Origin: Candidatus Kaiserbacteria bacterium
GTDB taxonomy: Bacteria; Patescibacteriota; Minisyncoccia; Phycocordibacterales; JABMNX01
Reading direction: 5' to 3'
Assembly (NCBI GenBank): GCA_013204405.1
Contig: JABMNX010000033.1
Span: forward strand, 1 to 33,860
Length of the DNA stretch: 33,860 nucleotides
Program-made: the position numbers and the translations under genes
Notes under the pieces: model-generated
Told to the model about the DNA's origin: nothing
The model's input: only the letters and a program-made list of their open reading frames with translations
Database searches by the model: none
Shown here: positions 4,613 to 28,574 of the stretch, in pieces
How positions within the stretch are numbered: position 1 is the first letter of the stretch
Layout: each line of letters starts with the position of its first letter

Positions 4613-4643
4613 AGATATTTAAACACGTAAGATCGCTAATAAT

Positions 4644-6748: not shown

Positions 6749-6753
6749 AAAAT

Positions 6754-7803: not shown

Positions 7804-7804
7804 T

Positions 7805-8861: not shown

Positions 8862-9083
8862 TTAAAAAAAACCACCGCACCCTACAAAATATACATTATC
8901 TTTTGCTGCTTCATCTGATACTGATACTTCTGAAGTACATTGTTTAGATGCCACTGTATTACTAGAAAGTCCTAATAGTGTATTAGGGGAATTTTTCACA
9001 AAAACAATAATGGCAACAGTAGTTATGACTACCGTAACGATAATCGCAGTTATAAGCTGTTTTGCTGAGTAACTAGTATTCAT
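8862..9083 (-). CDS. Small single-TM peptide with C-terminal FVGCGGFF tail
   Basis: 73 aa from the ATG at 9081-9083 (an in-frame ATG two codons upstream at 9087-9089 sits directly on the -10 element, so the inner start is preferred). Residues about 9-29 form one hydrophobic helix; then comes a polar Ser/Thr/Asn-rich linker with one cysteine (KQCTSE), and the protein ends in NVYFVGCGGFF. The second peptide in this window (16464-16682) has an unrelated TM and linker but the same end, N-I-H-L-FVGCGGF-LE, so the tail is the conserved functional part. The gene is downstream of, and on the same strand as, a family X gene (48 nt away) but has its own extended -10. The function is unknown: precursor peptide, surface anchor signal or signalling peptide are all possible. 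Confidence 0.8.
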   Translation of the reverse strand: MNTSYSAKQLITAIIVTVVITTVAIIVFVKNSPNTLLGLSSNTVASKQCTSEVSVSDEAAKDNVYFVGCGGFF

Positions 9084-9131: not shown

Positions 9132-10718
9132 TTAACGTTTAAATCTGTCATTAAATAGCTCTGGTGTCATAATAAGGTTAACACGCAATCCTGAGTCATT
9201 AATGAACTTAGGCAACTCCTGCGGTGGTATTTTGTGAATAAGGTCATTGTTATAGCTCCGTAGATAGAATTTCTCTAAAGAAACATTCTCTCTTTTTTGT
9301 GTTAATAAAATGGGGGCTTCTACTATAGTTTCGTTCGAGAGAAAGAAAAGGGTGCTAATGTATGAGCGCGTTAAGAAAAGCGCAGTGAGGGGGATTTCTT
9401 GATGTCGGGATACGTTAATGGTAGCAAGTGTCATGTCATCAATATTTCCAATAATATATTCAATCCATGCGCCCTTGCTCTTCCAAAGGGTGTTAAATGA
9501 ATAAAGTCGAGATAATTTTTCTTTCCCTAGATTTTGTATTAACGCATGCTCTTCATATGTTTCTAACAATAACTGCACATCTTTCATAAATGCAGTAATT
9601 TTATATGATTGTAATATAGGGTGTGACAAACGTATCTTCTGTTCTAGATTTTTAAGTTTAGTAAACACAACATCTTCGTCAGAAACTATATCAAATATTG
9701 GATGAGTAATTATTTCATTTTGTATGTAATAAGATGAGAGCGTTAATCCTATATCGTGTCCAAAGTCCGGACACAAATAAGGGTTCAGGGGTTGATATTG
9801 GTATCCAATACCAGCTTCACGTAGTGTTTCGTAGTACGCACCTTCTATAGTTCTAAGGTCGTAGAACAAGAGGTCATTGACTGGAGTTATTCTTATAATA
9901 TCTGAATTACTTATACGAGACGTGCTCCACCAAAACATCATAACTGGCGGTGCAGTAAAATAACGACACGCCCCGTTACCTAACTGTACAGCAGGGAGAT
10001 CATCAATAGATTCTGTGGTTTTAGATATAGCTGGGCGGGCATATTCTCGTATCATTGCCTCTGTAAGAATATCTTTATTTCGGACTAAAATGTTTTTCGG
10101 AGTGTTTGTTCCATTTTCTTGACGTTCATATTCTATCTCTATATCGGTTACCTTGGTGGTACATACTTTACGTAATCCAAAGAGGCATCTAAACCGGTTT
10201 TTTTCTTCCAATCTCCGTCGCTCTACATTTTGCAGTGCAAGGTTAAGTTGTGATGCATAAAAATTTACATCCGTGTATCCATTCAAAAAAGCTGTTTGGT
10301 TTTTATCAAACGTATTAAGGATATGTATTATATTTTTTATATCACGTGTATATGCTGTAATAGTTTTACGTAAATTAATGTGATATGTAATGGCAGTTAC
10401 TAAAGATGGTGATGTGAGAAACGTAAGGCGAGACCCTTCTGTGCTAGAGATAGTGCTTAGAAAACGTATTGGGTACAGACCCTTTAAGGTATATTTTTGG
10501 GAATCAGTAGGTAGATAGTTGGCGGATAAATGAATACTACGCGTTAAGTTTTCAACAGCATACTTTAGTGCAACTGGGTCAGTTCCTTCAAACGCAAATA
10601 GTGGAGTATCTCTATGGGACTCATAATATCCTTGTAGAGCCGCGCGAGATGGAGTATGTAACCCAAAGAGTATGAGTGTAGTGAGTAAAATGATAAGCGA
10701 TGTAGCTGTAGGTCGCAT
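9132..10718 (-). CDS. Exported 'family X' protein (unrecognised), copy 1
   Basis: 528 aa with a typical signal peptide (residues 1-26, ending SRA). The mature part begins with PLFAFEGTDP (39-48) and contains VNFYASQL (151-158), a charged helix 165-176, C178/C186, then a strongly conserved block: GNGACRYF (248-254), MFWWSTSRIS (261-270), VNDLLF (280-285), YYETL, and QPLNPYLCPDFGHD (309-322). It ends with FLTRSYISTLFFLSNE and a Y/F-rich tail. The 526-aa protein at 20313 is alike throughout, and the 441-aa protein at 15090 shares the start, the YxYQP block and the end. I do not recognise the family. The CPDFGHD motif and the two-Cys block could bind metal or be catalytic, but this is a guess. 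Downstream on the same strand is the FVGCGGFF peptide. Confidence 0.78.
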   Translation of the reverse strand: MRPTATSLIILLTTLILFGLHTPSRAALQGYYESHRDTPLFAFEGTDPVALKYAVENLTRSIHLSANYLPTDSQKYTLKGLYPIRFLSTISSTEGSRLTFLTSPSLVTAITYHINLRKTITAYTRDIKNIIHILNTFDKNQTAFLNGYTDVNFYASQLNLALQNVERRRLEEKNRFRCLFGLRKVCTTKVTDIEIEYERQENGTNTPKNILVRNKDILTEAMIREYARPAISKTTESIDDLPAVQLGNGACRYFTAPPVMMFWWSTSRISNSDIIRITPVNDLLFYDLRTIEGAYYETLREAGIGYQYQPLNPYLCPDFGHDIGLTLSSYYIQNEIITHPIFDIVSDEDVVFTKLKNLEQKIRLSHPILQSYKITAFMKDVQLLLETYEEHALIQNLGKEKLSRLYSFNTLWKSKGAWIEYIIGNIDDMTLATINVSRHQEIPLTALFLTRSYISTLFFLSNETIVEAPILLTQKRENVSLEKFYLRSYNNDLIHKIPPQELPKFINDSGLRVNLIMTPELFNDRFKR

Positions 10719-10727
10719 AATATACGC

Positions 10728-10748
10728 ATAGTATCACAGATTTGATAC
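10728..10748 (-). promoter_or_regulatory. Extended -10 overlapping a palindromic operator upstream of family X copy 1
   Basis: On the minus strand TGATACTAT (10736-10728) is an extended -10 that ends 9 nt before the ATG at 10718. It overlaps the inverted repeat GTATCA-N6-TGATAC (10731-10748), so a repressor bound there would block the promoter. The regulator is unknown. Confidence 0.45.
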
Positions 10749-10774
10749 ACACTCTGGGCATGTTTTTACCAAAA

Positions 10775-10801
10775 TTGACGGTTTAATTATTGTGGTATTA
10801 T
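10775..10801 (+). promoter_or_regulatory. Putative sigma70 promoter of the isolated 14-Cys gene
   Basis: TTGACG (10775-10780) and TATTAT (10796-10801) with a short 15-nt spacer; the -10 ends 9 nt before the ATG at 10811. The short spacer lowers confidence. Confidence 0.4.
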
Positions 10802-10810
10802 GCGTGTACC

Positions 10811-11962: not shown

Positions 11963-11979
11963 GATATATATTACTTTTT

Positions 11980-12804
11980 ATGCAAAAAATTATTAGATTA
12001 CAAAACCTTCTTACATTTGTTACAGAAAGCTCACATTCAAGTTTTTATAAGAAGCATTTTGGTACCTCAATGAATCATAAGGAAGTACGTACATATGAAG
12101 ATTTAGCACTTCTTCCAAGTATCTCTAAAAATGACTTGTTACAGACTCCACTTAGTGACCGATTATATATACCAACGGGGAGGGGATTGGTGAAAGTGGT
12201 TGATTCAGGGACACATTCTTTTCTTATAAAACGTGTATTGTCTGAGTTGCGGGAAGAACAGTTTGGCAATCTCGGAGAGCGTCCCACAGTCTTGTTTAGC
12301 AATGGGCACGAATCACTAGAAAAAAGCCTATGGTGTTATGAGCAAAATACTCTCCCGATGATTGGTGAGTCGACCAATATTCCTATTACTGAATATTTCG
12401 TTCATCGTTATGAGAGTGACTCATTTTTAGGAGATATAAAAACACTTGAGTCTATTTTTGAACAAAGTAAAGACGCCTTTCTTCCTGGAAGCCAATTTAC
12501 ATTATGCGAGGGTGGATTTGATCTTGTGCGGATAAAGAAACATGTTCCACTTGATTCTACTACCTTAATTCTTTCGTTTCCTGAAGTAGGAGCATGTGCT
12601 CACTCCTGTCCATATCATCTAAAAAATAATCGGTTAGTTTTTCATCCAGATAAGAATAGTATTATCGAACATGATACTAACCTTACGGTTACAAAATTAA
12701 TAGCAATGCCGACGCCAATAATTCGTTACATAACAGATGTACCTTCAAAAACAGAAGAGTATTCATGTGACTGTAAGGAAGAGGTAAGTTTTTCTCTTAC
12801 ATAA
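11980..12804 (+). CDS. 'Half' PaaK-like protein (adenylate-forming fold without ATP loop)
   Basis: 274 aa. The N-terminus has the PaaK/COG1541 signature of a leading helix (SSFYKKHF), then LPSISKNDLL and a RLYIP strand, and the C-terminus keeps PIIRYITDV, corresponding to the family's LIRYRTGD. The Ser/Thr/Gly ATP loop is lost (SGTHSFL instead of TSGTSGK), the GD of RYxTGD is lost, and the C-terminal lid domain is absent. It is therefore probably a catalytically inactive partner. Related half proteins occur at 16796 and 26408, each next to a full-length PaaK-like gene; here the partner starts 17 nt downstream. It likely forms a heteromer with the full enzyme; this is inference from repeated co-occurrence. 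Confidence 0.7.
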   Translation: MQKIIRLQNLLTFVTESSHSSFYKKHFGTSMNHKEVRTYEDLALLPSISKNDLLQTPLSDRLYIPTGRGLVKVVDSGTHSFLIKRVLSELREEQFGNLGERPTVLFSNGHESLEKSLWCYEQNTLPMIGESTNIPITEYFVHRYESDSFLGDIKTLESIFEQSKDAFLPGSQFTLCEGGFDLVRIKKHVPLDSTTLILSFPEVGACAHSCPYHLKNNRLVFHPDKNSIIEHDTNLTVTKLIAMPTPIIRYITDVPSKTEEYSCDCKEEVSFSLT

Positions 12805-12821
12805 TCTAGTAACCTAATTAT

Positions 12822-13574
12822 ATGACCGACAAAGAAAAATTAGACAGTTACGGACTTAAGCCTCTTGAGGACATGAAAAAGAGTGGTTGTTCTAAGGACT
12901 ACATGATAAGAGTCTCTTCTGGTACTTCTGGAAAGAAACCAGTTTTTATGATACAGAACAAGAGTCGTGATCTAGGGAAGGAGCCACTATTTTCAAATCA
13001 ATTTAAAGATGTCCGACGTATTGTTTTTTTTGGCGGTATGCTCAATGCACGGCTTTCATCCGCCGCACGATTCCTTTTTTATCTAGGTGAAGATGAGTAC
13101 ACAATACTTGCTGTCGATAACGTCGACATGAATAGTAGTCTTGAGGGTTTGTTTCGTGATTTTAAACCAGAGGGATTTATTGGGTTCCCTTCGTTTATTG
13201 CGAGAGCACTTTCTTTTGTTAACGATAAGCGTGTACTTGAACACGTGAAAGCGGTACGTTTTTCTGGTGAGATGATTAGTGATGCGCAAAAGGAATTATT
13301 TCACGATAAAATTCCTCAGGCTACATTAGAAAATATCTATGCCTCAGCAGAGGTGGGGTATATGTCAGGGGTATCGTGTAGTCATTTAAAGGAAAGTCAG
13401 TACCATCCGTACGAACGAGTAAACATAGAAATAATAAACCAAGATGAAGACGGGGTAGGTGATTTGGTGGTTTCGTATAATCTGAGTCCTTCCATTTATA
13501 TTAATCAATATGTAACAGGGGACACAGCACGTTTTTTGAAATCTCCTTGTGTGTGGAGACACCATAACATTTGA
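12822..13574 (+). CDS. PaaK-like adenylate-forming enzyme, N-terminal fragment (frameshifted)
   Basis: 250 codons before a premature TGA. Contains the ATP loop SSGTSGKKP (residues 33-41), FIGFPSFIA, the FSGE motif, NIYASAEVGY (the A5-like acidic motif) and a YVTGDTARF motif near the end, all in PaaK-family order. The N-terminal helical part is shorter than in the paralogs. The frame breaks right after SPCV within a (TG)4 repeat at 13548-13555. Adding one TG unit would give SPCVCGD and join the frame at 13549 (+1/-2 shift), restoring a protein of about 374 aa with the expected Cys-rich turn. It is therefore a recently broken, phase-variable or mis-sequenced gene. The family converts a carboxylate to an acyl-adenylate; the substrate is unknown. 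Confidence 0.75.
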   Translation: MTDKEKLDSYGLKPLEDMKKSGCSKDYMIRVSSGTSGKKPVFMIQNKSRDLGKEPLFSNQFKDVRRIVFFGGMLNARLSSAARFLFYLGEDEYTILAVDNVDMNSSLEGLFRDFKPEGFIGFPSFIARALSFVNDKRVLEHVKAVRFSGEMISDAQKELFHDKIPQATLENIYASAEVGYMSGVSCSHLKESQYHPYERVNIEIINQDEDGVGDLVVSYNLSPSIYINQYVTGDTARFLKSPCVWRHHNI

Positions 13575-13944
13575 ATTACTTGGACGGAGGGATTTTGATT
13601 TTATTAAATTTCTTGGCACTACACTGAGACAGGAGGAGTTTGAAAGGGTAGCAACTGAATTAGAGGAATATATTGTTGATTTTCGTGGAGAAGTTCGTGA
13701 GGTTAAAGAAGCAGATGAGCTTAAGGGAGAAATTACATTAAAAATAGTAGGGACTCCTAAGTTACAAAAAATGAAGAATCCAGAAGGGTTTATATCTAAT
13801 GAAATCTCTCAAAGACTTTTTGTGACGTCTAGTAAGACCATAGAAGATATGGTTTCAAAAGAAATTTATTTACCATTAAAAATTCAATTTGTAGATAATT
13901 TTGAGTACCAGAACAAACCAATTAAACTAAAACGAACACTTTAA
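13549..13944 (+). pseudogene. PaaK-like enzyme, C-terminal fragment after the TG-repeat frameshift
   Basis: Continues the previous entry in the +1 frame. It starts with CGDTITFELLGRRDFDFIKF, matching the family's Cys-Gly turn and the GR-D hinge that opens the C-terminal lid domain, and runs to the stop at 13942-13944. It has no start of its own with a recognisable ribosome site. Unless frameshifting occurs, it is not translated as part of the enzyme, and the adenylating protein would lack its lid. Confidence 0.7.
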
Positions 13945-13962
13945 ACACGCGTTTGTACAGTG

Positions 13963-13968
13963 TATAAT
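13963..13968 (+). promoter_or_regulatory. -10 element upstream of the SSS-like transporter
   Basis: TATAAT, 25 nt upstream of the ATG at 13994, in the short gap after the broken PaaK-like gene. The -35 region is weak (TTTAAA-like near 13940). Suggests a separate transcript for the transporter/family X pair. Confidence 0.4.
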
Positions 13969-13993
13969 AAACCGAATTCATCTAATATAAACC

Positions 13994-15087
13994 ATGTTTC
14001 TTATGAAGTTTCTCAAAAAATTATTTAGCCACGAAAAAGATGTAGACAACATTAGTGACTATTCCAACTGGAGAGTTGGGTTAAGTTGTGCTGCAAGTTG
14101 GAGTTGGGGGGGGTTAGCATAGCAGTCGGCATAGCCATTATGCACTCAAAAGGCGTATTGGCTTTTCTTGTGTGGACATTTGGAAATATATTAGCCCTTC
14201 CTTTGTTTGGATTAGTTTTAAGATATTTACCGGCGAGTAGAGGATGGTTAAAATTTACACCACTGTTCTTTATATTTCTTTATGTTGAGTATTTTGCAAT
14301 AACTTTAAACTTACAAGCTATTAAGAGCGCTCTAGGAGGCGGGATTGATATATCCAGCTTTGTATTTGTAAAAGGTGATTTGATTACCCCTATAGTAATT
14401 ATCACTGGATTAGCTATTGTATTTTTTATTAATAAGTACGGACTCAAAGGAAGTATGTTAACAGACATAGGACAATATGCAGTGCAGTTAGTGGGTGTTG
14501 TTACCCTTGCTGGTGCTGGATATCTTTTAGGGGAAAGAATGGACCTTTTATGGTTGACACCAGATGGAAGGGATTGGTTACTTTTTGGTTTCTTAGGGAT
14601 TATTACCGGAGCTCTAGGTACAGGGCATCAGTGGCAGAGATTTTCAGCGTTTGAAGGAAGAGATGTCCTTAGAATAGGGCTCTGGGGTGGCTTGTTCTTT
14701 GGTATATATATGTTTTTTGTATATCTATCTGGTTTATTTTTCACGCAAAATATAATTCTTGGTGTAATATTTCTCATAATAATCCTAAGTGTTGCAACAA
14801 GTACTATAGACAGCGCTGTTGCTGGATTACAATTCATCGCAAGAAAGTTTAAACTAGACCCAAGAGCAGGGTCTCTCGTTGCTATTATCGCTGTTATGGT
14901 TTGGCCGTTTTTATCAGAAAAAGGACTTACTAATTTGTGGGGGATTATGGTACAGGTTCGGTACCCTACTGTTTTAATCGCTGTTGGTTTAACGGCGATG
15001 TATCATATATTTAAACCAAATTCTAAAATAAGAACTCAGGCAACTGGGGTCCTTCAGAAATATTTAATTATGTTTAAAGGAGAGTAA
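13994..15087 (+). CDS. SSS-like multi-pass membrane transporter (frameshift in G8 tract)
   Basis: Two frames together make one protein of about 364 aa. The ATG at 13994 (or 14003) opens a charged N-terminus followed by ...VGLSCAASWSWGG and then stops. The frame beginning near 14086 continues with VSIAVGIA and about nine hydrophobic segments. The join is a run of eight G at 14106-14113: one extra G (or a -1 slip) fuses the frames. GTGHQWQRFSAFEG and VATSTIDSAVAG resemble conserved sodium:solute symporter motifs (helices 8-9 region). The protein is shorter than the usual 450-500 aa of SSS transporters, so identification as LeuT-fold/SSS-like is moderate. The next gene, a family X member, follows after 2 nt with a good AAGGAG site, so the two are cotranscribed. 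Confidence 0.6.
15076..15084 (+). promoter_or_regulatory. Strong Shine-Dalgarno for the cytosolic family X gene
   Basis: AAAGGAGAG ending 5 nt before the ATG at 15090. It stands out because most genes here have no recognisable ribosome site, and it confirms that start. Confidence 0.7.
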
Positions 15088-15089
15088 CA

Positions 15090-16415
15090 ATGAGTGATAT
15101 CGGTTTAATTAATTTTATAAGTACCGTAAAGAAAGACCCTCTTTTTGCTGCAGAGGGTCTTGATTTAGATAATGCCCGGAAAGCATTACTAGGATTAGGA
15201 AATTCAGTTGATGAACTTGAAGAAGCCTGGGGTGGGATAATTTCAAAACTATTTTTTATAAAACACCCTCCAAGAGAGTCTCTACATCCAATAGAGTTTT
15301 TAGAGAATTTTATTGAAAGTGAGTACGCTAGGCGAGTGTTTTTGAAAAGCGGAAGTAAAGAAGATGCTGATGCACTCCTAAATCAATGGAGAGAAACACA
15401 AAAATCTTATACAAAAAACCTTTTTTCTTATAAGAAGGCATTATTGGAAATACTAAAGATAGAAGAAATAGACCCTAATGCAAAGATTGATTACTTTAGT
15501 CTCGTTGGTTCTATTGGTGAGTTACTCAGCTGGGTTGATAGGTTATTAGAGAATGCTGAAGAGTTAGACTCGGAAATTAAGAAATTGGGGGGTATATTAA
15601 AAGGCGAAGAACAAATCTTCCGAAAGAGTAACGATAACAGGGATAAGTTAATTATTGAGAAGGCTGACCTACCAAAACTTCCTCAAATAGACTCCAATCT
15701 AGAGGAATTGGTCAGAGTGGCGACTATATATACTGAAAAGAAAAAAGCCTTTGGGCCTATTGTGTACTGGTTGGGCCATTTTAATGAAGGTAAAATAACT
15801 CCACATCGTTTTCTTGTCTACATAGGAACCAGTAAACACACCAACTGCAAGATGGTCACTATTCTACTTGCTGATGATATGTATTTTTTGAACCTTAAGC
15901 GTGATCACTTTATGGACTTATCAATATATGAGCCAGTAATGAAGAAGGGACTTAATTACTGGTACCAACCTGCTGCGGCAATTTATAATACATTAGATGC
16001 ATCTTACTGGGCCGATATTGTTACGATTGCAGACATTAAAGACAGAAAATTTATAAATGAAGAACAGGTGCTACAACAACGGTCGAGTTTGTTAGATTTG
16101 CTAATTGGTGCCGGAGTTTCTGCTGGGGTCACATTTACTAAACTTATTAAGATAGTTTCGCATCATAAAGAATCGGCAAAGCTTAGTTACTTGTATGCAG
16201 CGCGAGCATATCCAACGCTCTACTTTCTTTCATTCAACCAGAGTGTCTGGAGGATTGAGGAAAGTCCTTATTTATTTGGAACGCGTTTTGCAAAAGAATC
16301 ACATTATGAGAGTTATACTGACCTTAAAGACAAGGTTCCATTTGATGTTCTTAGAGACATTGTGGAAACTTCAGTTATGCGTACTGAATATTTTAAGAAA
16401 AAACTTGGAGTCTAA
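15090..16415 (+). CDS. 'Family X' protein without signal peptide (unrecognised), copy 2
   Basis: 441 aa, no signal peptide or TM. It is a remote homolog of the two exported family X proteins. DPLFAAEGLDLDNARKAL aligns with their PLFAFEGxDP start, SLHPIEFLENF with PIEFLETL, YEPVMKKGLNYWYQP with YYETLxxxGxxYQxQP, and AARAYPTLYFLSFNQSVW with the FLTRSYxxTLFFLSNE block near the C-terminus. The double-Cys central block and the CPDFGHD motif are missing, so those probably belong to the extracellular role. It is coupled to the SSS-like transporter upstream and converges on the second FVGCGGF peptide gene, 48 nt away. The function is unknown. Confidence 0.7.
   Translation: MSDIGLINFISTVKKDPLFAAEGLDLDNARKALLGLGNSVDELEEAWGGIISKLFFIKHPPRESLHPIEFLENFIESEYARRVFLKSGSKEDADALLNQWRETQKSYTKNLFSYKKALLEILKIEEIDPNAKIDYFSLVGSIGELLSWVDRLLENAEELDSEIKKLGGILKGEEQIFRKSNDNRDKLIIEKADLPKLPQIDSNLEELVRVATIYTEKKKAFGPIVYWLGHFNEGKITPHRFLVYIGTSKHTNCKMVTILLADDMYFLNLKRDHFMDLSIYEPVMKKGLNYWYQPAAAIYNTLDASYWADIVTIADIKDRKFINEEQVLQQRSSLLDLLIGAGVSAGVTFTKLIKIVSHHKESAKLSYLYAARAYPTLYFLSFNQSVWRIEESPYLFGTRFAKESHYESYTDLKDKVPFDVLRDIVETSVMRTEYFKKKLGV
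15133..15161. other. Intragenic 9-bp hairpin near the start of family X copy 2
   Basis: AAGACCCTC and GAGGGTCTT form a perfect inverted repeat with an 11-nt loop, about 40 nt inside the coding region. There is no T-run directly after it on either strand, so a terminator is not claimed; it could tune translation or be chance. Confidence 0.4.
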
Positions 16416-16463: not shown

Positions 16464-16682
16464 TTATTCTAAGAAACCACCACATCCAACAAAAAGGTGG
16501 ATATTTGGGTTTTTCCTAGGTTGATTTTTGTCCAGACTAGAATTACCACTGCTTTTTTTCTTGGTAACAATGGTTTTTACGAGTGTAGTTACTTGAATTG
16601 TTAGTTTGTATAAAAAGAGGAGTAGGGTAGCAATCCAAACAGCACCCATTGAGGCAATTGTTATATTTCGTGATTTCCTCAT
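16464..16682 (-). CDS. Small single-TM peptide with C-terminal FVGCGGFLE tail
   Basis: 72 aa from the ATG at 16680-16682, chosen because the extended -10 TGCTATACT lies just upstream and would be inside the gene with the longer start at 16718. Residues about 8-26 form a hydrophobic helix, residues 36-62 a Lys/Ser/Asn/Pro-rich linker, and the end is NIHLFVGCGGFLE. Its TM and linker do not resemble those of the peptide at 8862-9083, but the tail NxxxFVGCGGF is almost the same, and both are 72-73 aa. It is convergent with family X copy 2 and divergent from the half-PaaK gene at 16796. The single Cys is in the tail. The function is unknown. Confidence 0.8.
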   Translation of the reverse strand: MRKSRNITIASMGAVWIATLLLFLYKLTIQVTTLVKTIVTKKKSSGNSSLDKNQPRKNPNIHLFVGCGGFLE

Positions 16683-16701: not shown

Positions 16702-16760
16702 AAGGAATTTTGTAACAAAAAACTATCTGGTGGAAAAAGAAAATCTCTCTCAAAATCACT

Positions 16761-16789
16761 TTGACCGTCATTATGCTAGACTATATAAT
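16761..16789 (+). promoter_or_regulatory. Sigma70 promoter of the half-PaaK/PaaK/PaaK cluster
   Basis: TTGACC (16761-16766), 17-nt spacer, TATAAT (16784-16789). The -10 ends 6 nt before the ATG at 16796. This is the clearest promoter in the window, and it sets the start of the next gene, which would be translated from a leaderless mRNA. Confidence 0.75.
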
Positions 16790-16795
16790 ACACAC

Positions 16796-17647
16796 ATGAA
16801 AATCTCCGACACAGTAAAAGAACAACTCGCCTCGGTTTTAGAACACATAAATGATAACGAATACTGTAATTTGTATAAGTATGTGCCGAGTATAAAAAAG
16901 GAAGAAATAGGGACGGTTTTTAACACAATTCCTGCTATTACGAAAGAGGTTTTACGTTCCCACTCTGGGAATCTTTCTCATTATCCAGAAAGTAAGGTTC
17001 GTTATTTGTCTTCTGAGTTTGACCCAGAGTATGCCAACCGATTATTCCTTTTTCCACAACTGTTAGATGCTCCATGGATGTTATTAAATGAACTACTTAA
17101 AAAAAGAGATGCGGTCGTTGCTATTCTCTCAATTCCACTATTCTGGCAGGTTGGTCCTTTTTTTTATAACACATGTAAAAAGAATGGTGTTCCTATGTCA
17201 GTAATTTCTCCTCGTAATCTTCCACTCGCACGTCAAGTAATAAAAGAAGTCGAAGCACAAGCAGTAACAGGAACCCCTGAAGCTGCAGACAGTTTGTACG
17301 GGTTACTATCTGAAGAAAATATTGGAAACCAGATACATACATGGCATCTTATAGTTCCTTTTGGTGAGAATCCTGAAATCCCAATACTTCCAGGAAATGT
17401 GCTTATTGAGTACCATGTATTTCCTGGGGTACCTATAGGGCATACATCTCCGGAGTTATTAAGAGAAAATCCTTACAGTTTTATCCCTTCACCAGAGTAC
17501 TTTTTTGAGATTGATAATGGCACGTGTTTTATAACAAGCCTTGAATCTCATGCATTACCTTTTATACGGTTAGAAATAGGAAGAAATGCGGAAAAGATAA
17601 CACGTGAAGGAAAAGAGATTGTTTCAATAAAAGAATATGTCTCCTGA
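16796..17647 (+). CDS. 'Half' PaaK-like pseudoenzyme
   Basis: 283 aa from the ATG at 16796. A GTG 22 codons upstream is in frame, but it lies upstream of the promoter, and the shorter form matches the 274- and 286-aa homologs. Shared with the protein at 26408 are LSHYPESKVRYLSSEFD, PLFWQVGPFFYNTCKK, SVISPRN, FPGVPIGH, PSPEYFFEI and a degraded PFIRLEIG in place of LIRYRTGD. No Ser/Gly-rich ATP loop and no C-terminal lid domain, so ATP-dependent activation is unlikely. The stop overlaps the next PaaK gene by 11 nt; the homologous pair at 26415 overlaps too, implying equimolar synthesis of a complex. A structural or substrate-binding subunit is the best inference. Confidence 0.75.
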   Translation: MKISDTVKEQLASVLEHINDNEYCNLYKYVPSIKKEEIGTVFNTIPAITKEVLRSHSGNLSHYPESKVRYLSSEFDPEYANRLFLFPQLLDAPWMLLNELLKKRDAVVAILSIPLFWQVGPFFYNTCKKNGVPMSVISPRNLPLARQVIKEVEAQAVTGTPEAADSLYGLLSEENIGNQIHTWHLIVPFGENPEIPILPGNVLIEYHVFPGVPIGHTSPELLRENPYSFIPSPEYFFEIDNGTCFITSLESHALPFIRLEIGRNAEKITREGKEIVSIKEYVS

Positions 17648-18948: not shown

Positions 18949-20274
18949 ATGTTTCTGTCCTCATTCCACAAAATAAAACTTGAAGAAGTTTTAAAATCAG
19001 TTCTTGAAAACAAACACTCATCTTTCTATGCAGACCGTTTTTTAGACAGAGCAATACGTCAACCATTAACATTTAAGTCATGGGGGAACATCCCTTTTGC
19101 AACTCGAGCCGAGATTACAGCTACACCATTTTGGGAACGAGTATTTGTCCCACGAGCCGAAGTTCCTGTAATTCGACATACATACGGAACAAGCGGAAAG
19201 AGAATCTTAATAACTCCGCGTTCAAGTTACGGTGATTATCAGGAGCCATATATAAACACTGGTATGAGTCGACTCATGTGTTTTTTTGCATCTGGTCATA
19301 ATGAATGCCCACGTGAAAGTATAGACATCCAGGTATGGTTTGGTGATGTTGGTAATCTTGAGATGTCAGCAAAAATTGCAGCAGAAGGAAGAGTTGATAG
19401 TCTATCCATTACACCATATACCGCACTTAATTTTGCTAAAGAACTTGAGAAGTACGATGCGGTGAAAAATATCAAGACAGTAATGCTTATTGGGGAACGA
19501 TGCTCTCCACTACAGCTTAAAAGAATTAATAGTCTATATCCAGACGCAGATGTATATGGAGTCTTTGCAAGTTCGGAGACACGAGAGGTAGTAGCACTTC
19601 CTTGTGTACATACTCGAAAATCTGCACCACTTGTACTTGAGCAGGTAAAGGAAATGTACTGTGAAATTATTGATCCAAACACAGGATCAGTCATTAATGA
19701 ATACGATGTGGTTGGAGAGTTGGTGATTACCACTTTAACTCTTGGGATACCATTTCCACTTATACGGTACCGCACAGGAGACATTGCTAAATATACAAAA
19801 CGTTCATGTTTGTGCGAGGAGGGAGGTCGTGGGTTTGAGGTTCTTGGAAGATCGACAGTTTTTCCCGTGAGGATGGCTAAAGGAGAATTAACAATAGATG
19901 CGGTGGAGAAGGCATTAAATGAGATACCAGATATTAATCCTAGATATTTTGAGGCACATTACTTTGAGATTGATAATAAGGATAAAAGGGTGCTACCTTG
20001 TATTCGAATGGTGTTAGTAACAGGTTCTGAAGACGAATCTAAAAATAAAGAATTAGCACAACAGATAGAACTTAAACTTTTTGTGTTTCCAACGTACACA
20101 TACGCACAAGGAGTGGAAGATGGAATCTATTTACCCATTGAAGTTTCATGCATACGCTCTGTTCCCGAAAGTTCTCCAGGAAAGCAGAGACCATCGGTCG
20201 TTGTGCGCCACATTTCCGGATCTCAATCAAATGAAGGGTATTATACTTCGGTGAGCGAAACCCGGTCATTGTAG
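18949..20274 (+). CDS. PaaK-like adenylate-forming enzyme (type A)
   Basis: 441 aa, complete. SSFYADRF helix, FATRAEI, the ATP loop HTYGTSGKR, TPYTAL, LIGERCSPLQ, VYGVFASSETRE (A5-like acidic motif), FPLIRYRTGDIA, a CLCEEGGRG turn, VLGRS hinge, then the lid domain with KGELTIDAVEKAL and FPTYTYAQGVEDGIY. A Ser/Gly/Tyr-rich 40-residue tail is unique to this copy. Its closest match in the window is the 27270 product, so a 'type A' and a 'type C' enzyme plus a half protein occur in both PaaK clusters. The family activates carboxylates with ATP (phenylacetate-CoA ligase/coenzyme F390 synthetase group); the actual substrate is unknown. It starts 25 nt after the previous gene fragment. Confidence 0.8.
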   Translation: MFLSSFHKIKLEEVLKSVLENKHSSFYADRFLDRAIRQPLTFKSWGNIPFATRAEITATPFWERVFVPRAEVPVIRHTYGTSGKRILITPRSSYGDYQEPYINTGMSRLMCFFASGHNECPRESIDIQVWFGDVGNLEMSAKIAAEGRVDSLSITPYTALNFAKELEKYDAVKNIKTVMLIGERCSPLQLKRINSLYPDADVYGVFASSETREVVALPCVHTRKSAPLVLEQVKEMYCEIIDPNTGSVINEYDVVGELVITTLTLGIPFPLIRYRTGDIAKYTKRSCLCEEGGRGFEVLGRSTVFPVRMAKGELTIDAVEKALNEIPDINPRYFEAHYFEIDNKDKRVLPCIRMVLVTGSEDESKNKELAQQIELKLFVFPTYTYAQGVEDGIYLPIEVSCIRSVPESSPGKQRPSVVVRHISGSQSNEGYYTSVSETRSL

Positions 20275-20312: not shown

Positions 20313-21893
20313 TTATTCACTTAAATAGAACTCTGGTGACATTATTAAATTAACCTTTAATCTAGTATCACTGATAAACTCGGCAGCATCTTGTGGCGGT
20401 ATTTGTGAAATGAGATCATCGTTGTAACTTCGGAAGTGAAAATTTTTAATAGGAGCAAGTCCCCTTTTTTCAGTTAACAAGAGTGGAAAGTCTACGATAG
20501 TTTCATTTGATAGAAAGAAAAGAGTGTCAATGTATGAACGTGTTAAAAAAAGTGCATAGAGTGGTATTTCTTGTTTTCGTGATACATTCACTGCAGTAAG
20601 TCCCATGTCGTCGATATTGCCAATAAGATGTTCTGACCATGCACTTTTTCCTTTCCATACTGTAACAAGGGAGAAGAGTCTATCCACGTTCTTGTTTCCA
20701 AATGTTAGTGTGAGGGTGTCAGGATTAGATGTCTCTAAGAGTAATTTCACTTTTTCTATAAAACCTTCAACTATTCTTGTGTCTAAGAATGATGTAGATG
20801 AAATAATATTTTTTTCTAGTGATGCTAGTTCTGTAAGAAGAATATCAGTGTCTTTAGCTGCCACACTAAAAAGTGGAGAATGCATTAAATCATTTTGTAT
20901 GTAGTGTGAAGTGAGCACTAAACTAGCGTCATGCCCAAAATCTGGGCATAGGTATGGATTAAGTGGTTGGTGTTGATATTTTAGACCTGATTTATTGAGC
21001 GTTTCGTAATAATTACCATTAGCTTCTGATAAATCATTAAATAGTAGGTCATTAATTGGGTTTATTCGAATAGTTTCAGAGTCGCTTATGCGGGACGAAC
21101 TCCACCAGAACATTATGGCAGGAATATCATTTGAGTAACGACAAATGCCGTCATTAAGAAATATTGTTGGCAAACTGCCTATAGATTTAGTTGTTTTAGA
21201 AAAAGCGGTGAATTTATTTACCACAGATTGAGCTATAATATTCTTATTTTGCGACAGTATCTCTCTTGGGGTACTTTCTTTATCTTCCACATGTATTTTA
21301 TCTGTTGGTATATCTTTTGGTTCAATTCGACAAGAAGATGATATTTTTAATAAACATTTAAATCGTCTTTTCTCCTCCTCTCCGCGCTTATTTGCCATCT
21401 GGATAGCCAACTTTAATTGTGTAGAGTAAAAATTTACATTAGTTGAGCCGTTAAGAAAGAATAGATCATGATTATCTAACGAGTCTAATACATAGACCAT
21501 ATCTTGTGCATTCTTTTTGTATATATATATGGTTTTAAGTAAACTGAAGTGGTATTTTTTAGCTTCTATGAGTGACGGTTTTGTTGAAAGCTGGACACGT
21601 AACATCTCGGTCATTGGCAAAGTTTCAAGAAACTCAATAGGGAACAATATTTTTCGTGTATATTGCTTTGTTTCTTCTGGAAAATATGAAATCGATAAAG
21701 AAAGACTTTTTTTAAGGTTTTTTATTGAATGTTCAAGCTCACTGGGGTCACTTCCTTCAAATGCAAACAAAGGTTTTGCTTGGTGTTGTGATATGTAATA
21801 TTCCAGCTCAGTGGAGCCCGGACCTTTATTTTCAAGTGCAAACAGAGATAGTATAAGCACAGTGAGTAGCAAAATTACTGTAGAGAGCCTCAT
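20313..21893 (-). CDS. Exported 'family X' protein (unrecognised), copy 3
   Basis: 526 aa, N-terminal signal segment (residues 4-20), then PLFAFEGSDP, VNFYSTQL, a charged helix with GEEEKRRFKC, NDGICRYSND, IMFWWSSSRISDS, INDLLFNDL, YYETLNKSG, QPLNPYLCPDFGHD and FLTRSYIDTLFFLSNE. It is alike over its full length to copy 1 (9132-10718), including every cysteine of the central block. Unlike copies 1 and 2 it has no FVGCGGF peptide gene beside it. It is convergent with the type A PaaK-like gene, 38 nt away, so it may have moved together with that cluster. The function is unknown. Confidence 0.78.
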   Translation of the reverse strand: MRLSTVILLLTVLILSLFALENKGPGSTELEYYISQHQAKPLFAFEGSDPSELEHSIKNLKKSLSLSISYFPEETKQYTRKILFPIEFLETLPMTEMLRVQLSTKPSLIEAKKYHFSLLKTIYIYKKNAQDMVYVLDSLDNHDLFFLNGSTNVNFYSTQLKLAIQMANKRGEEEKRRFKCLLKISSSCRIEPKDIPTDKIHVEDKESTPREILSQNKNIIAQSVVNKFTAFSKTTKSIGSLPTIFLNDGICRYSNDIPAIMFWWSSSRISDSETIRINPINDLLFNDLSEANGNYYETLNKSGLKYQHQPLNPYLCPDFGHDASLVLTSHYIQNDLMHSPLFSVAAKDTDILLTELASLEKNIISSTSFLDTRIVEGFIEKVKLLLETSNPDTLTLTFGNKNVDRLFSLVTVWKGKSAWSEHLIGNIDDMGLTAVNVSRKQEIPLYALFLTRSYIDTLFFLSNETIVDFPLLLTEKRGLAPIKNFHFRSYNDDLISQIPPQDAAEFISDTRLKVNLIMSPEFYLSE

Positions 21894-23543: not shown

Positions 23544-25133
23544 TTAGAAATACGGCTGGATGGTACCTTCTATAACAGGTTCACTGTTCCTTGTTTGTTG
23601 AGTTTTTTCCCACCAAATATCAAGCTTATTTTTTAACTCTTTAGCAACCTCTTCTTCTTTGTTATACACATTACGTAGCTCATTTGGGTCTTCCTTAAGA
23701 TTGTAGAGCTCATACAAATCTCTAATCGTATCGCGCTGTGTGATAAGATTCCACCAACCATATTGTGCTTCCTGTAGTCTTGCCTTTCTCCAGATAAGCT
23801 TCCATTCTTTCGTTCGAATCGCTACATCAAATATTGCATCTTTCTTATCAAGCTCATCAAAAGATGTCAGAGAGTCTTGTATTTTTTGATATACACTTTC
23901 TTCATTCTGAATAAATCCATTACTCGTTTGAATTGCATGTTCCCACAGTGGCACACGTACTGAAAAAGTTTCATTGCGGATACTAGAAGTAGATTTTTCA
24001 ATAAGTGGACGTAGGCTTATTCCTTCAGCTTGATTTAAAGGGGGTTCTTGTATGTAGTCAAGAATTGTAGGAAGAACATCGAAGGAATTAACCAATGAGT
24101 CTATCCGTTGCGGTTTTTCTCCTGGGATATAAATAATGAGTGGTGTGTGTATAGTGGCGTCATATATGTCGTAATGGGCATAGTAACCATGCTCTCCCAT
24201 TTCCTCACCGTGTTCTGAATGAAGTATTACAATAGTATTTTCTGCAATAACACTTCTTTTGAATGCTTTAAAAAACTTACCCAAAAATTCATCTGTGGCA
24301 CGTATATTGCTGAGATACCCCTCTTTTATATATCTACTGTCTTCATCGGTTAGTGGAGTTATTGTTGTACCAAGTTCATCAAGGGACCATATATTTCCTT
24401 CATATATAGTCCTTAAATGATCCCACCAATCTAGTTTATTTTCATCTTTTAGTGGGCCATTGTATTCTTGTTGATATGAAAATGGATAACGTCCATATGG
24501 CCAGTGAGCTGTGCCGAGAGTTAACCAGAGAAAGAATTTATCATCTGGGGGATTTTTAATCCAAGAAAGGGGATTGTTCGATAGAGCCCTACCAGACCTA
24601 AAATAAGTACGAGACTCGATTGGTGGCACCTGGAATTCTTTATAATATTCGTCAAAGCCCCTGCTAAAGCTTTCACGAAGTGCATATGAAAAGTCAAAAA
24701 ATTCGGGAGAGGAACCCATTGCCACAGTGTAATATCCACTTGACTGTAATACTTGCGCCAGAGTAATAAACTTATTATTTAAGACAGAATCAAATCGGAC
24801 TACACCACTGTTTAGGGGCGAGAGTGATGTGTGCAGGGACATTTCAGTTATTGGAGTTAAATACGATGGAGTGATGTAGTCTTCAAACACAATTGATTTC
24901 TCAGCCCAGCTATCTATTGAAGGAGTGGGGCTTTCTATTATGTTTTCATTGTACGTGCCAACATAATTCGAACCTAAGCTGTCAATAGAGATAAGAATTA
25001 TATTGCATTTTTTTTCACACGGGAGTTTGTTAATTGTCGCAAGAAAGTGTAAAGAAAAAAAACACGCGAGTAGAAAACTAAGCACGCATAGTTTATAGAT
25101 AACTTTTACTGATTGAGGATTTCTACTTATCAT
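23544..25133 (-). CDS. Membrane-anchored sulfatase/alkaline-phosphatase-superfamily protein
   Basis: 529 aa from the ATG at 25131-25133, which overlaps the stop of the upstream PaaK-like gene; longer in-frame starts lie inside that gene. TM at residues 14-34, NIILISIDSLG (D51), TPSYLTPITEMS at the nucleophile region (T93-P94, no Cys), FLWLTLGTAHWPYG, VILHSEHGEEMGEHGYY, HTPLIIYIPG and the C-terminal ELYNLKEDPNELRNVY of sulfatases. The usual D-H-G metal motif is E-H-G. It is probably the last gene of a four-gene transcript with the PaaK cluster, which suggests that its extracellular reaction concerns the same product. The substrate cannot be predicted. Confidence 0.8.
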   Translation of the reverse strand: MISRNPQSVKVIYKLCVLSFLLACFFSLHFLATINKLPCEKKCNIILISIDSLGSNYVGTYNENIIESPTPSIDSWAEKSIVFEDYITPSYLTPITEMSLHTSLSPLNSGVVRFDSVLNNKFITLAQVLQSSGYYTVAMGSSPEFFDFSYALRESFSRGFDEYYKEFQVPPIESRTYFRSGRALSNNPLSWIKNPPDDKFFLWLTLGTAHWPYGRYPFSYQQEYNGPLKDENKLDWWDHLRTIYEGNIWSLDELGTTITPLTDEDSRYIKEGYLSNIRATDEFLGKFFKAFKRSVIAENTIVILHSEHGEEMGEHGYYAHYDIYDATIHTPLIIYIPGEKPQRIDSLVNSFDVLPTILDYIQEPPLNQAEGISLRPLIEKSTSSIRNETFSVRVPLWEHAIQTSNGFIQNEESVYQKIQDSLTSFDELDKKDAIFDVAIRTKEWKLIWRKARLQEAQYGWWNLITQRDTIRDLYELYNLKEDPNELRNVYNKEEEVAKELKNKLDIWWEKTQQTRNSEPVIEGTIQPYF

Positions 25134-26415
25134 CTCGAAATATCTTTTTCTTTTTACCAGTAGAGGCTTTAGTATGAACCAGTGGCACAATTTCAAGAGA
25201 CATATATATATTTTCTTCGACTCCATCTGCATAAACACGGTCTGGAGCAATACGTAGAGATTTTGATAGAGCCTCTTTTAAAGTGCTTGTGCTTTTATCT
25301 GGAGAAATAAGAGAAAGATGTATTGATATCTGTGGTTTAAACACACCGTCTTCATCTACAATTTCTTTGTAATGGACCTCAAAGTCTCCACTATTTAGAT
25401 AATCACTATGTAGTGAAATAACTCGATCAACCTCTGATAAGTTAAGTTCTCCTTTTCTAAAACGTAGACGGTCTATATCTAACCTACCGTCAATTGAGAG
25501 GACTGGTGTTGTTATTCCACATTCACATTCATGACGGATTATTTGTGCTAAATCTCCTGTTCGATATCGTATAAGTGGGAAAGCAACAGGGCGGATTGTT
25601 GTTATTACTAGCTCTCCACCGACTCCATTTTCTTTAATAATTTCTTCAGATATTGGGTTAATAATTTCTGTATACACATATTCAGGGACAGGGTGTACGT
25701 ATTGTTTGTGTTCATTAATTGCAATACTGCATGGGACTGCCACAGATGTTTGTGACTCAATACTCGCGTACTCGGAAACTATTTTTGCGTTTGGGAATAA
25801 CCTTTGGAATTCATTCCACTGGAATTGAGAACACCATTCACCAAATACTTGTATTGCTTTTACTTTCTTTCGGACGTTTGTCGGTAGATTTTCTGACAAA
25901 GCTCCAAGAGCATACACGGGCCCTGCAAGCATGTCTGGCATGTAAAGCGTAATGAGGTGTGCCGCTAATGGAATATCACCAGGGTCAACGTTTATTGAAT
26001 CGATTCCTGCTAGTCTTCGAAACGATGGACTATAATAAAATTGAGCACCGCTAAATGTAGCAAGGCGGTGTACATTAAGAGAAACAAACAACCTATAGTT
26101 TAAAGGCAGTTTATTTCCTTCATGGGACATTGTGCGTGGTACTGGGAGAATACCTGCTCCTGATGTTCCAGAAGTGGGTCGGATTATCTCTACATCTTTT
26201 TCGTCAACATATAAGCGTTCGTGCATCGGAAATTTTTGTATCTCCCCACGTGATAAAAATGGTATGTCCTCCCACGCAGTTTCGTCTCCTTCAAGAAATG
26301 ATTGCACAGATGTTTCTCCGAAGTATTTTTCTCGGTAGAAGTTGCTCTTGGAGCTTTTTGTTACTTCTTTTAGCACTGTAGCTAGTGCCGAGTATGGAAA
26401 ATTCAAATTATTCAT
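25123..26415 (-). CDS. PaaK-like adenylate-forming enzyme (type C)
   Basis: 430 aa from the ATG at 26413-26415, which overlaps the upstream stop (ATGAATAA); the in-frame TTG two codons earlier is less likely. Motifs: SNFYREKYF, FLSRGEIQ, RLYVDEKD, the ATP loop PTSGTSGAG, YYSPSFRRLAGIDS, VFGEWCSQ, SEYASIESQ, FPLIRYRTGDLA, the CECG turn, SIDGRLDIDRLRFRKGE hinge/lid and RVYADGVEENIY. All active-site segments of the PaaK family are intact, so this copy is likely active. It is the intact reference showing that the 17637 gene contains an inverted piece. The gene is coupled to the half protein upstream and the sulfatase-like gene downstream. Confidence 0.82.
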   Translation of the reverse strand: MNNLNFPYSALATVLKEVTKSSKSNFYREKYFGETSVQSFLEGDETAWEDIPFLSRGEIQKFPMHERLYVDEKDVEIIRPTSGTSGAGILPVPRTMSHEGNKLPLNYRLFVSLNVHRLATFSGAQFYYSPSFRRLAGIDSINVDPGDIPLAAHLITLYMPDMLAGPVYALGALSENLPTNVRKKVKAIQVFGEWCSQFQWNEFQRLFPNAKIVSEYASIESQTSVAVPCSIAINEHKQYVHPVPEYVYTEIINPISEEIIKENGVGGELVITTIRPVAFPLIRYRTGDLAQIIRHECECGITTPVLSIDGRLDIDRLRFRKGELNLSEVDRVISLHSDYLNSGDFEVHYKEIVDEDGVFKPQISIHLSLISPDKSTSTLKEALSKSLRIAPDRVYADGVEENIYMSLEIVPLVHTKASTGKKKKIFRDDK

Positions 26416-27268
26416 GTCCAATTGTTATATGTCCATCTTGGTCTACAGAGGTATTTGTAGAGATAGCAAAACGAATAAGCGGTATTGTATGGCACTTAAG
26501 ACTAGTTATGTAGCAACAGTCGTTAATAACTTCAAAGAAATATTCTGGAGAAGGTAGAAAACTTAAAGAATCCTGTTTTGATGAAGGGTTTGTGTACCCG
26601 ATTGGTATTCCTGGGAAAAGATGGTACTCAATAGATGTGTCGCCACTGAGTTGTGGTATAGTCACTTTTTTATTAAGTGGAGCAACGATGTGCCACAACC
26701 GCACTTGTTCCTGTAAACCTTCAGATTTTAAGATATTAAATACATCTTCTGCGACATCTGATGTCGCAACAACCATTTGCGCTTCCGTTTCTTTGATTAA
26801 TTGCGTAATCAGTGGTGGGTTGCGTGGGGAAAGTACTGATACTGGTACATTCTTTTTCCTACATGTTTTGTAGAACATTGGACCAAGTTGCCATGAGAGC
26901 GGTACGGTCATTATAGCAACTCGTGGTGTGTACGCTGCAACTTCATCGGCAACTGTGTCCCATTCCGCATCTATGTTTTGAGCGTATAAAAATAAGTCCT
27001 TCCAATTATCTAAATCAAATTCAGATACAAGATATCGAATATCTTTTTCTGGGTAGTGAATTAACTTTTCTTTATGCTTAATTAATTCAGTAGCAGACAC
27101 CGTTGGTATTTTTTGTAACTCCTCAAGAAACGTTTCTTGAGAGCCCGAAACTATCGGTAAGTCCGCGTACAGGTCGCTTAAAGTGTTCTCTCGGGCGAAA
27201 TCTAAAACCGTGTGGATATCGTGTATGATTTCTTTACTGATAGGTGTGTGCCAATCTTTTGTGCTCAT
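26408..27268 (-). CDS. 'Half' PaaK-like pseudoenzyme
   Basis: 286 aa. Colinear with the 16796 product: LIHYPEKDIRYLVSEFD, PLSWQLGPMFYKTCRKK, SVLSPRNPPLI, ETEAQM, FPGIPIGYTNP, FLPSPEYFFEV, YITSLKCHTIPLIRFAIS. The PaaK ATP loop is not present, and the RYRTGD motif is reduced to RFAIS; the lid domain is missing. Its ATG is 1 nt past the stop of the type A gene, and its stop overlaps the type C start, so the three are translated as a unit. Conservation of a non-catalytic partner in three clusters suggests a required subunit. Confidence 0.75.
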   Translation of the reverse strand: MSTKDWHTPISKEIIHDIHTVLDFARENTLSDLYADLPIVSGSQETFLEELQKIPTVSATELIKHKEKLIHYPEKDIRYLVSEFDLDNWKDLFLYAQNIDAEWDTVADEVAAYTPRVAIMTVPLSWQLGPMFYKTCRKKNVPVSVLSPRNPPLITQLIKETEAQMVVATSDVAEDVFNILKSEGLQEQVRLWHIVAPLNKKVTIPQLSGDTSIEYHLFPGIPIGYTNPSSKQDSLSFLPSPEYFFEVINDCCYITSLKCHTIPLIRFAISTNTSVDQDGHITIGHE

Positions 27269-27269
27269 A

Positions 27270-28574
27270 TTATTTGTTTAGGTGGTGAAATAAACGCACT
27301 TTTTTCTCTGCTTTGGTTGGTGTAGGTTCGGTTAGTATGTCAATTATCATTGGGAGAAAGAAGTTTCTTTTTACTCCGTCAGCATACGTGACATGGCTGT
27401 TTATGTAAATGTGCTCGGATAAACACTTGGCTATAGTGCTTAAACGTACGTTCTTAGAGACTGGCCTGACACGTATCTTTAAATAAGGACGGGCTATACT
27501 GTCTGGATTTTCATCCGCATTTCCTTCAAAATAATGGGCTTCAAAGTCATTTTCTATATATGTACTACATGCAGCGACCCCTTCTTCTATCCAGAGAATC
27601 GAAAATTCTCCACTCATAAAACGTATTCTGTCAGCAACAGTTCTCCCAACCATCTCAAAGAGAGGACCACGTCCACATGGACAGTGGTCTTTTTCAATAA
27701 GAAACAAATCTCCAGTACGATATCTAATGAGAGGGAATGGTTGTTCTGTGGTGCGCGATGATACTACTAGCTCAGCTGGTTCATGTGGATCTTTTTGTTT
27801 TCCTGTATCAGGGTCTATAAATTCACTAAGGAACTTTTTGTCATCAATATGGAACGATATTAGATTATGTTCTTTAGCGTATGAACATGAGATTCCAAAG
27901 ATTCCAGCAACTTCAGATGAAGAATAGTTCTGGAAGATAAGAGGATTTTTATATAATGCCTTAATGCTATCTCGTTGAGCACGGGAACACCTGTCCCCGT
28001 ACATCTCCACTGTCTTTATTTCTTCAAGGTATCCTTCATTCCTTAAATACGGTGCGAGTTGGATTACGAGGTGAGGGAATGCCGAAATACTTTCAGCCTT
28101 AAATAAAAAAATCATACGTGCTGCATACTTAAAATCATCAACCGTTTCTGGATAGGACATATTCATGAGTATCGCACCCGCGTTTCTTCTGCTTAATTCT
28201 GACATGTACCACGCACTCATAAAAGATACTTGTCTTTTGATTCCAGCCTTACTTGGTGCGTCCCCATAATTTCCTGCAGTACGACGTGGAGCAATAATTG
28301 GTTTCTTAGAAGATGTTGAGCTTGTGGAACGGATAGCTTCTACTTCGGTTTGTGGAATAAATGTTCTATTCCACACAGACACAGCTGTCATTTCCTCTCT
28401 GTTTAGAAAGGGTAGAGTACGCCAACTCAATATGCTGTCGGGAAATGTATTGTTGGTAGTGCTTTGTGCTAAGTGGTTACGATAAAAATCTGAGTACTCA
28501 CTCTGTAAAACATGTTTTAAGACATTTTGTAGCTCGTCGAGGACAGGTTCGGTGTCAGTTGGTATAGTCAACAT
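27270..28574 (-). CDS. PaaK-like adenylate-forming enzyme (type A) with altered ATP loop
   Basis: 434 aa. SDFYRNHL, FLNREEM, TFIPQTEVEAIR, ATP loop STSSTSSKKP, MYGDRCSRAQ, FQNYSSSEVAG, FPLIRYRTGDLF, the CPCGRGP turn, MVGRTVADRIRFMSGE and YADGVKRNFFLP. Both glycines of the canonical TSGTSG loop are serine, so nucleotide binding may be weakened or specialised; the other motifs are intact. It is closest to the 18949 product and heads the minus-strand cluster of type A, half, type C and sulfatase-like genes. The upstream gap contains three palindromes shared with the divergent HTTM gene. Confidence 0.8.
   Translation of the reverse strand: MLTIPTDTEPVLDELQNVLKHVLQSEYSDFYRNHLAQSTTNNTFPDSILSWRTLPFLNREEMTAVSVWNRTFIPQTEVEAIRSTSSTSSKKPIIAPRRTAGNYGDAPSKAGIKRQVSFMSAWYMSELSRRNAGAILMNMSYPETVDDFKYAARMIFLFKAESISAFPHLVIQLAPYLRNEGYLEEIKTVEMYGDRCSRAQRDSIKALYKNPLIFQNYSSSEVAGIFGISCSYAKEHNLISFHIDDKKFLSEFIDPDTGKQKDPHEPAELVVSSRTTEQPFPLIRYRTGDLFLIEKDHCPCGRGPLFEMVGRTVADRIRFMSGEFSILWIEEGVAACSTYIENDFEAHYFEGNADENPDSIARPYLKIRVRPVSKNVRLSTIAKCLSEHIYINSHVTYADGVKRNFFLPMIIDILTEPTPTKAEKKVRLFHHLNK

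Follow-up and report, generated by a model that had tools for sequence, protein, structure and literature searches.

Short membrane peptides with a conserved C-terminal Cys-x-Gly tail form a three-part module with F530/F441 and PaaK-like proteins in Patescibacteria

The contig JABMNX010000033.1 of a Candidatus Kaiserbacteria bacterium (assembly GCA_013204405.1), analysed over its 33,860 nucleotides and termed "the window" below, carries two genes for short membrane peptides that share the C-terminal stretch FVGCGGF. Counting these window copies, 20 short proteins of this kind were found in 13 genomes of the ultra-small Patescibacteria (Paceibacteria), distributed over several families of one class. 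The family is part of a three-part module, in which the tail peptide is accompanied by a protein of the F530/F441 family and a pair of phenylacetate-CoA-ligase-like (PaaK-like) proteins; tail and partners are conserved together. These observations point to a tail-recognising system of a new kind. We favour a reading in which the tail is recognised and probably modified within the module, because the tail is constantly placed at the stop codon, its Cys is constant, and both the PaaK pair and the F protein are obligatory. The two window peptides are encoded as follows (ORF, open reading frame; TM, transmembrane segment):

8862..9083, minus strand: peptide copy 1, ORF of 73 aa with TM, a Cys (SKQC), a linker and the type A tail VYFVGCGGFF-stop
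8862..8891, minus strand: tail codons of copy 1 (YFVGCGGFF-stop), from a pattern scan
16464..16682, minus strand: peptide copy 2, ORF of 72 aa with TM, a K-rich linker without an extra Cys and the type B tail HLFVGCGGFLE-stop

A sequence-only reading of the window had described both ORFs as carrying one TM-type segment each. Their positions agree with that description, which gave no strand; copy 1 comprises 75 aa if an upstream ATG at 9089 is the start. Each peptide has a single N-terminal hydrophobic segment with a mean Kyte-Doolittle (KD) value over 18 residues of 2.9 (copy 1) or 2.2 (copy 2), and a TATACT hexamer lies 10 nt 5' of the ATG of copy 2. DNA encoding GCGG[FL] (VGCGGF-type) occurs twice in the window, where shuffled sequences predict no match, and likewise only twice in the entire 595-kb genome; two more matches in the genus and family are due to chance.

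Relatives were found through the partner family F530/F441, and short ORFs were then read in the fetched neighbourhoods. The genomes are metagenome-assembled, and about 1,100 distinct Patescibacteria genomes were searched. The same reading had made its case depend on conservation of the tail beyond the window, which is borne out by the family of 20. It had also described conservation as confined to the tail, which does not hold, since most relatives harbour another Cys in the stretch that separates the TM from the tail. This second Cys is missing from window copy 2, L092 and L096 (L numbers denote loci), and the sole other Cys of the L090 peptide sits in the TM region. The peptide bodies do not align, but the C-terminal ends do, yielding the consensus hydrophobic-x-[VIL]-[GSNW]-C-x-G-hydrophobic-hydrophobic(-E/Q/S)-stop. 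Within the tail only the Cys and the Gly two residues further on are invariant, and CGG alternates with CNG, CSG, CAG and CFG; the residues before the Cys follow hydrophobic-x-[VIMLA]-[GSNW] with few exceptions. In type A tails two mostly hydrophobic residues follow the Gly before the stop, which places the Cys fifth from the end, and in type B tails an additional E, Q or S makes it sixth. The tails of the relatives are:

L021, VYQIWCGGIY; L022, VYNIWCGGVF; L023, LLFVSCGGFLE
L025, VFFVSCGGIY and VYFVSCGGTF; L026, VFFLSCGGIF and LLFVSCFGFLE
L056, VYYVGCGGLF; L057, VYFVGCGGLF; L058, VYFMGCGGFF; L061, LLFVSCGGFIQ
L089, ELFVNCAGFLE; L090, NLFISCGGFLE; L092, HFFVSCGGFIS; L093, VLFAGCGGFF
L094, YLFVGCNGFF; L095, CFSVGCSGIF; L096, KLFISCGGFIE

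The tail is specific for module loci. A single fixed regular expression finds 18 tails among the 746 short ORFs of the module loci (266 kb) and none among the 740 of the control loci (275 kb; Fisher p = 7e-6); the expression was composed after the tails had been seen, and the count is thus a specificity check, not a blind test. Strict tails on ORFs that have a TM and are 60 aa or longer occur in 6 of the 9 genomes with F530 and in 0 of the other 388 genomes of the order (397 in total). Other matches in the 397 genomes, as far as translated, are ORFs of at most 25 aa, and the remainder end in TGG rather than in a stop. A stricter pattern run across 85,000 species gives 12 matches, of which only the three in Patescibacteria are real, and a type B pattern finds eight peptides (one of them new) in the 13 module genomes, along with one chance match containing an internal stop. 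L003, L004 and most other hits of two tail scans are chance ORFs of 5-61 aa without a TM. A candidate third copy in L021 (11029-11163, FPCGGIRKI) was discarded because it lies antisense within an F530 gene, and the assignment of peptide P0001 to F0F1 subunit A (E 4e-4) was rejected at 20 bits against a curated cut-off of 224. No peptide was found in phages and no F441 in viral contigs.

Could these ORFs be chance products or relics, and the tail a motif of the DNA? The short ORFs have no domain or family match in the library scans (NCBIfam was run on ten peptides), which is what chance would predict. Against this stand the position of the tail at the stop codon in every case, the 18 matches versus none in control loci, and synonymous variation throughout the tail, which rules out a DNA-level motif: the invariant Gly is encoded by any of the four GGN codons and the Cys by TGC or TGT. 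Moreover, a TATAHT hexamer lies 11-16 nt 5' of the ATG in 8 of 19 peptide genes, compared to 0.9% of random ATGs and 17 of 199 large ORFs; start codons were chosen by eye prior to this count. We consequently give the chance explanation almost no credence. Judging from these strong -10-like boxes close to many ATGs, the peptides seem to be transcribed from promoters of their own, with leaders that are very short or missing.

The partner family F is represented in the window by three genes:

9132..10718, minus strand: F530, 528 aa, signal peptide, four Cys; on the same strand as copy 1, with its stop 42 bp upstream of the first ATG of copy 1
20313..21893, minus strand: second F530 paralogue, 526 aa, 48% identical to the first by sequence comparison
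15090..16415, plus strand: F441, a signal-less, distant member of the F family beside copy 2 (clade support 100/99)

The signal-less F proteins form one clade with this support. Secreted F530 proteins have four invariant Cys, and the cytosolic F441 proteins have no conserved Cys. The family occurs in 9 of the 397 genomes of the order, in 6 more of the class and, clearly, in 1 elsewhere in the phylum (genome G917). Pfam, NCBIfam and the PDB sequences yielded no match to it, and PDB profile searches with A2 and A4 returned chance matches only. A third tail peptide was not found beside the second F530 paralogue, and a search with exact seeds confirmed no relatives of the 528-aa F530 in genome contigs. 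Peptide and F protein vary together: pairing by proximity, the second Cys is present in 10 of the 11 peptides that accompany a secreted F and in 1 of the 4 whose F lacks a signal peptide (Fisher p 0.03, with small numbers), and the tail type tracks the F tree with 3 changes, compared to a shuffled mean of 5.5 (11-15 of 500 shuffles are as low).

PaaK-superfamily proteins are found in every module, usually as a pair of one protein with adenylation motifs and one degenerate protein (PaaKN or splitA). Membership in the superfamily is indicated by matches to PF00501 (E 8e-7, just under the gathering score), PDB 2y27 (E 7e-12) and NF045666 (84-90 bits), and the scores for named PaaK equivalogs (CoA ligases) all fall far under the curated cut-offs. 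Nearly all modules have one or more PaaK-like proteins with the motifs A3 (TSGT[ST]G) and/or A7 (RYRTGD), and PaaKN and splitA have neither; the motifs were scored with simple regular expressions, which missed both in L089. The window encodes:

11980..12804, plus strand: splitA, degenerate PaaK-like, no A3 (motif scan)
12822..13944, plus strand: PaaK-like with A3 SSGTSGKKP in two overlapping frames, frameshift near 13549-13574 (motif scan)
16730..17647, plus strand: PaaKN, degenerate PaaK-like, start adjoining copy 2 (sequence and motif)
18949..20274, plus strand: PaaK-like ligase with A7 RYRTGD and an A3 region YGTSGK (sequence and motif)
25123..26421, minus strand: PaaK-like ligase with A3 (TSGTSG) and A7 (sequence and motif)
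26408..27268, minus strand: PaaKN, degenerate partner of the preceding ligase (sequence and motif)
27270..28574, minus strand: PaaK-like ligase (sequence and motif)

The frameshift in the gene at 12822-13944 is either real or an assembly error. A further PaaK-like gene (17637-18923) is broken, with its N-terminal part on the plus strand, a part containing GRISIDRLRIPKGEINLAEIDRVL on the minus strand (18472-18819) and the last part on the plus strand again (18666-18923). Inverted-repeat arms lie at 18602-18615/18917-18930 and 18516-18527/18635-18646, and the gene represents either an inverted segment or decay.

Tail peptides occur only together with the F family and PaaK-like proteins, and 13 of 14 genomes with intact F and PaaK genes possess one. 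The exception is the most distant genome, G917, where a long masked N run beside the module (L102, 2275-7090) leaves the absence uncertain. Eleven PaaK-like loci of the same order that lack F, used as controls, contain no tail peptide (0/11). Compact operons place the partners next to each other, such as PaaK-PaaK-pep-pep-F-F-F (L025) and PaaKN-PaaK-pep-F-F (L026). The strict co-occurrence with fixed partner genes, along with the exact distance to the stop kept in divergent bacteria, supports the earlier proposal that the tail is a site of recognition or reaction for another factor. Adenylation, one of the chemistries suggested then, fits the ever-present PaaK-superfamily proteins, which are adenylate-forming. 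The likeness to processed Gly-Gly tails does not hold: N, S, A or F takes the place of the first Gly in L094, L095, L089 and L026, respectively, and two or three residues follow the second, so that GG is never C-terminal. Nor was any protease, sortase or E1-like gene recognised that consistently accompanies the peptide.

Several modules adjoin uptake genes for small organic acids, including SSF symporters (L061, L096), TctC (L061, weakly L095), DctP (L026), and NMT1 binding proteins with ABC genes (L061, L090, L094, L102). Nearby enzyme genes encode UbiD (L096), a TPP enzyme (L093) and aminotransferases (L058, L102). The window itself has one candidate transporter:

14086..15087, plus strand: transporter-like membrane protein, similar to sodium:solute symporters by inspection; no Pfam match, but its relatives at L061 and L096 match PF00474

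None of 10 module genomes has a CoaE score above cut-off, compared to 10 of 14 controls, and ACPS is absent from 7 of the 10 module genomes. From these counts, a CoA acceptor is not obviously home-made.

The gene family, the conserved tail and the fixed partners are established, and the PaaK fold and motifs, the N-terminal TM of the peptide, the absence of CoaE and the uptake genes beside several modules are evident at the level of sequence. In the explanation that we favour, the peptide is the small, membrane-tethered third member of the module, whose CxG-hydrophobic-hydrophobic tail would be bound by the module's own proteins and would offer the invariant Cys as reactive group. A PaaK-like enzyme would activate a small carboxylate as acyl-AMP, the tail Cys in place of CoA would accept or carry the acyl group, and the tail would dock onto F530/F441. 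Where the F530 of a module is secreted, the second Cys of the peptide may hold the tail Cys in a disulfide outside the cell. Acyl transfer from a PaaK-bound acyl-AMP to the tail Cys is the specific mechanism that we tentatively put first, as a possibility that is still more apt to be wrong than right. In its favour, peptides that accompany the cytosolic F441 clade also keep the tail Cys invariably, although a stable disulfide is hardly to be expected there. The extension of this mechanism to a gene-encoded thiol carrier, in which the peptide Cys would replace CoA or acyl-carrier protein in bacteria without CoA synthesis, a heteromeric PaaK-type ligase would charge it and F441/F530 would read it, is distinctly more doubtful.

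Several points weigh against acyl transfer. The main difficulty is topology: positive-inside reasoning places the majority of type A tails outside the cell, whereas PaaK is cytosolic, so that the transfer would have to come before export. Furthermore, F shows no recognisable catalytic signature, and AlphaFold gave no usable model of F530 or F441 (pLDDT 45 and 40) with the window paralogues only as alignment. Uptake genes accompany only some modules; window copy 1 lies instead among HG-family, F530 and sulfatase genes. Finally, CoA synthesis is commonly missing in Patescibacteria, and CoA may be scavenged.

Almost as likely as acyl transfer is a docking function, in which the last ~10 residues would be a non-covalent ligand of F530/F441, acting as an added strand or hydrophobic C-terminal hook that tethers F to the membrane while PaaK acts elsewhere. 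Outside the cell, the tail Cys would form a pair either with the second, upstream Cys of the peptide or with any one of the four Cys of F530. The association of the second Cys with the secretion state of F, the invariant Cys of F530 as opposed to none in F441, and the agreement of tail type with F clade all argue for docking. Yet, the tail Cys is retained where a disulfide is not expected (window copy 2, L090, L092, L096), an invariant Cys-x-Gly would be superfluous in a pure hook, and three peptides adjoin PaaK or other genes at 7-10 kb from F (L056, L057, L058). Rather unlikely in our view, though suggested by analogy to the mycofactocin precursor MftA, is that the CxG-hydrophobic-aromatic end would be the core of a small modified product, a cofactor or signal, and the variable N-terminus a membrane leader. 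The invariant MftA end Cys-Gly-Val-Tyr looks close to WCGGIY and SCGGIY (PMC3023750), dedicated ATP-dependent enzymes go with every peptide, and radical SAM-like genes adjoin the L095 peptide. On the other hand, none of ten peptides matches MftA in NCBIfam, the twenty main window proteins scanned contain no radical SAM Pfam match, the C-terminal residue varies (F, Y, E, Q, S), and the peptide has a TM that MftA lacks. A thiolactone signal, for which a PaaK-like enzyme would activate the C-terminal carboxylate and close it on the Cys, forming an AgrD-like ring of five residues (CGGFF, CGGIY, CGGLF), is more improbable still. It draws on adenylating enzymes and on the position of the Cys in type A tails, which is without exception the fifth from the end, but leaves type B with six residues from Cys to an end in E, Q or S. 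Neither a C-terminal recognition peptide nor a receptor kinase was noticed, and the genome lacks AgrB (no PF04647 match; a weak control, as the model scarcely matches control genomes).

Among described systems, the mycofactocin precursor offers the nearest pattern, by analogy only. MftA (TIGR03969) is likewise a short peptide with a variable N-terminus, an invariant C-terminal Cys-Gly and dedicated enzymes always adjacent, and its shortness was taken as a sign that it is a substrate (PMC3023750). In contrast, the peptides described here have an N-terminal TM, a varying end of two hydrophobic residues and PaaK/F partners instead of a radical SAM maturase; none of the ten peptides run against NCBIfam gives a match, and no tail reads CGVY. 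The enzymes resemble the PaaK superfamily, with NF045666 (DVU_1553 family AMP-dependent CoA ligase) as nearest NCBIfam model, in sequence, in A3 and A7 and in a CxCG motif, but they remain far below its cut-off of 300 and differ in that active and degenerate pairs are tied to a small peptide and F, and that CoaE is absent. Agr rings have their Cys fifth from the end, and AgrD/AIP shares with type A peptides this Cys position and the membrane-anchored short peptide; unlike AgrD, the module has no AgrB, no C-terminal recognition region and also six-residue type B tails. Ubiquitin-like Gly-Gly modifiers with their E1 similarly combine a Gly near the C-terminus with adenylating enzymes, whereas here GG is neither terminal nor invariant and the enzymes are PaaK-type. 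LuxE-type acyl-protein synthetases activate an acyl group with ATP and pass it to a protein Cys. The proposed mechanism would follow this broad logic, but no LuxC/LuxE partner was identified and the acceptor would be a separate short peptide. The tails do not belong to the C-terminal sorting class (GlyGly-CTERM, PEP-CTERM kind) either: the TM is N-terminal, the tail is at the stop, and no sorting family matches. The open-access literature searched holds no description of the module, and no searched library describes the peptide or F.

The surroundings of the modules contain further recurrent genes. The window stretches 47-8842 and 10790-11962 encode about nine tandem Cys-rich proteins with an HGIGHG motif and almost no Pfam match; two of this family have an N-terminal cupredoxin-like domain, and the family also fills type A loci in other genomes. 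Two back-to-back sulfatase-family genes (PF00884) at 22084-25250 have counterparts next to modules in L022, L024 and L058. Two adjacent genes at 29983-31232 belong to a small beta-domain family (b255), which recurs in several module genomes beside an O-antigen-ligase-like/TPR membrane protein (31316-33277 in the window). In L095, the CSGIF peptide is immediately preceded, on its own strand, by a row of radical SAM-like genes (10687-18299; the first Pfam-confirmed).

The module is compact, comprising three genes with a very short recognisable tag and two unannotated families, in a bacterial group in which most genes are unexplained. Peptides of this kind are easily overlooked by gene callers. 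Even if the tail serves for docking only, it would constitute a new short C-terminal recognition motif that makes such peptides findable. If the tail Cys is indeed an acyl acceptor, this would explain how bacteria without CoA use enzymes that resemble CoA ligases.
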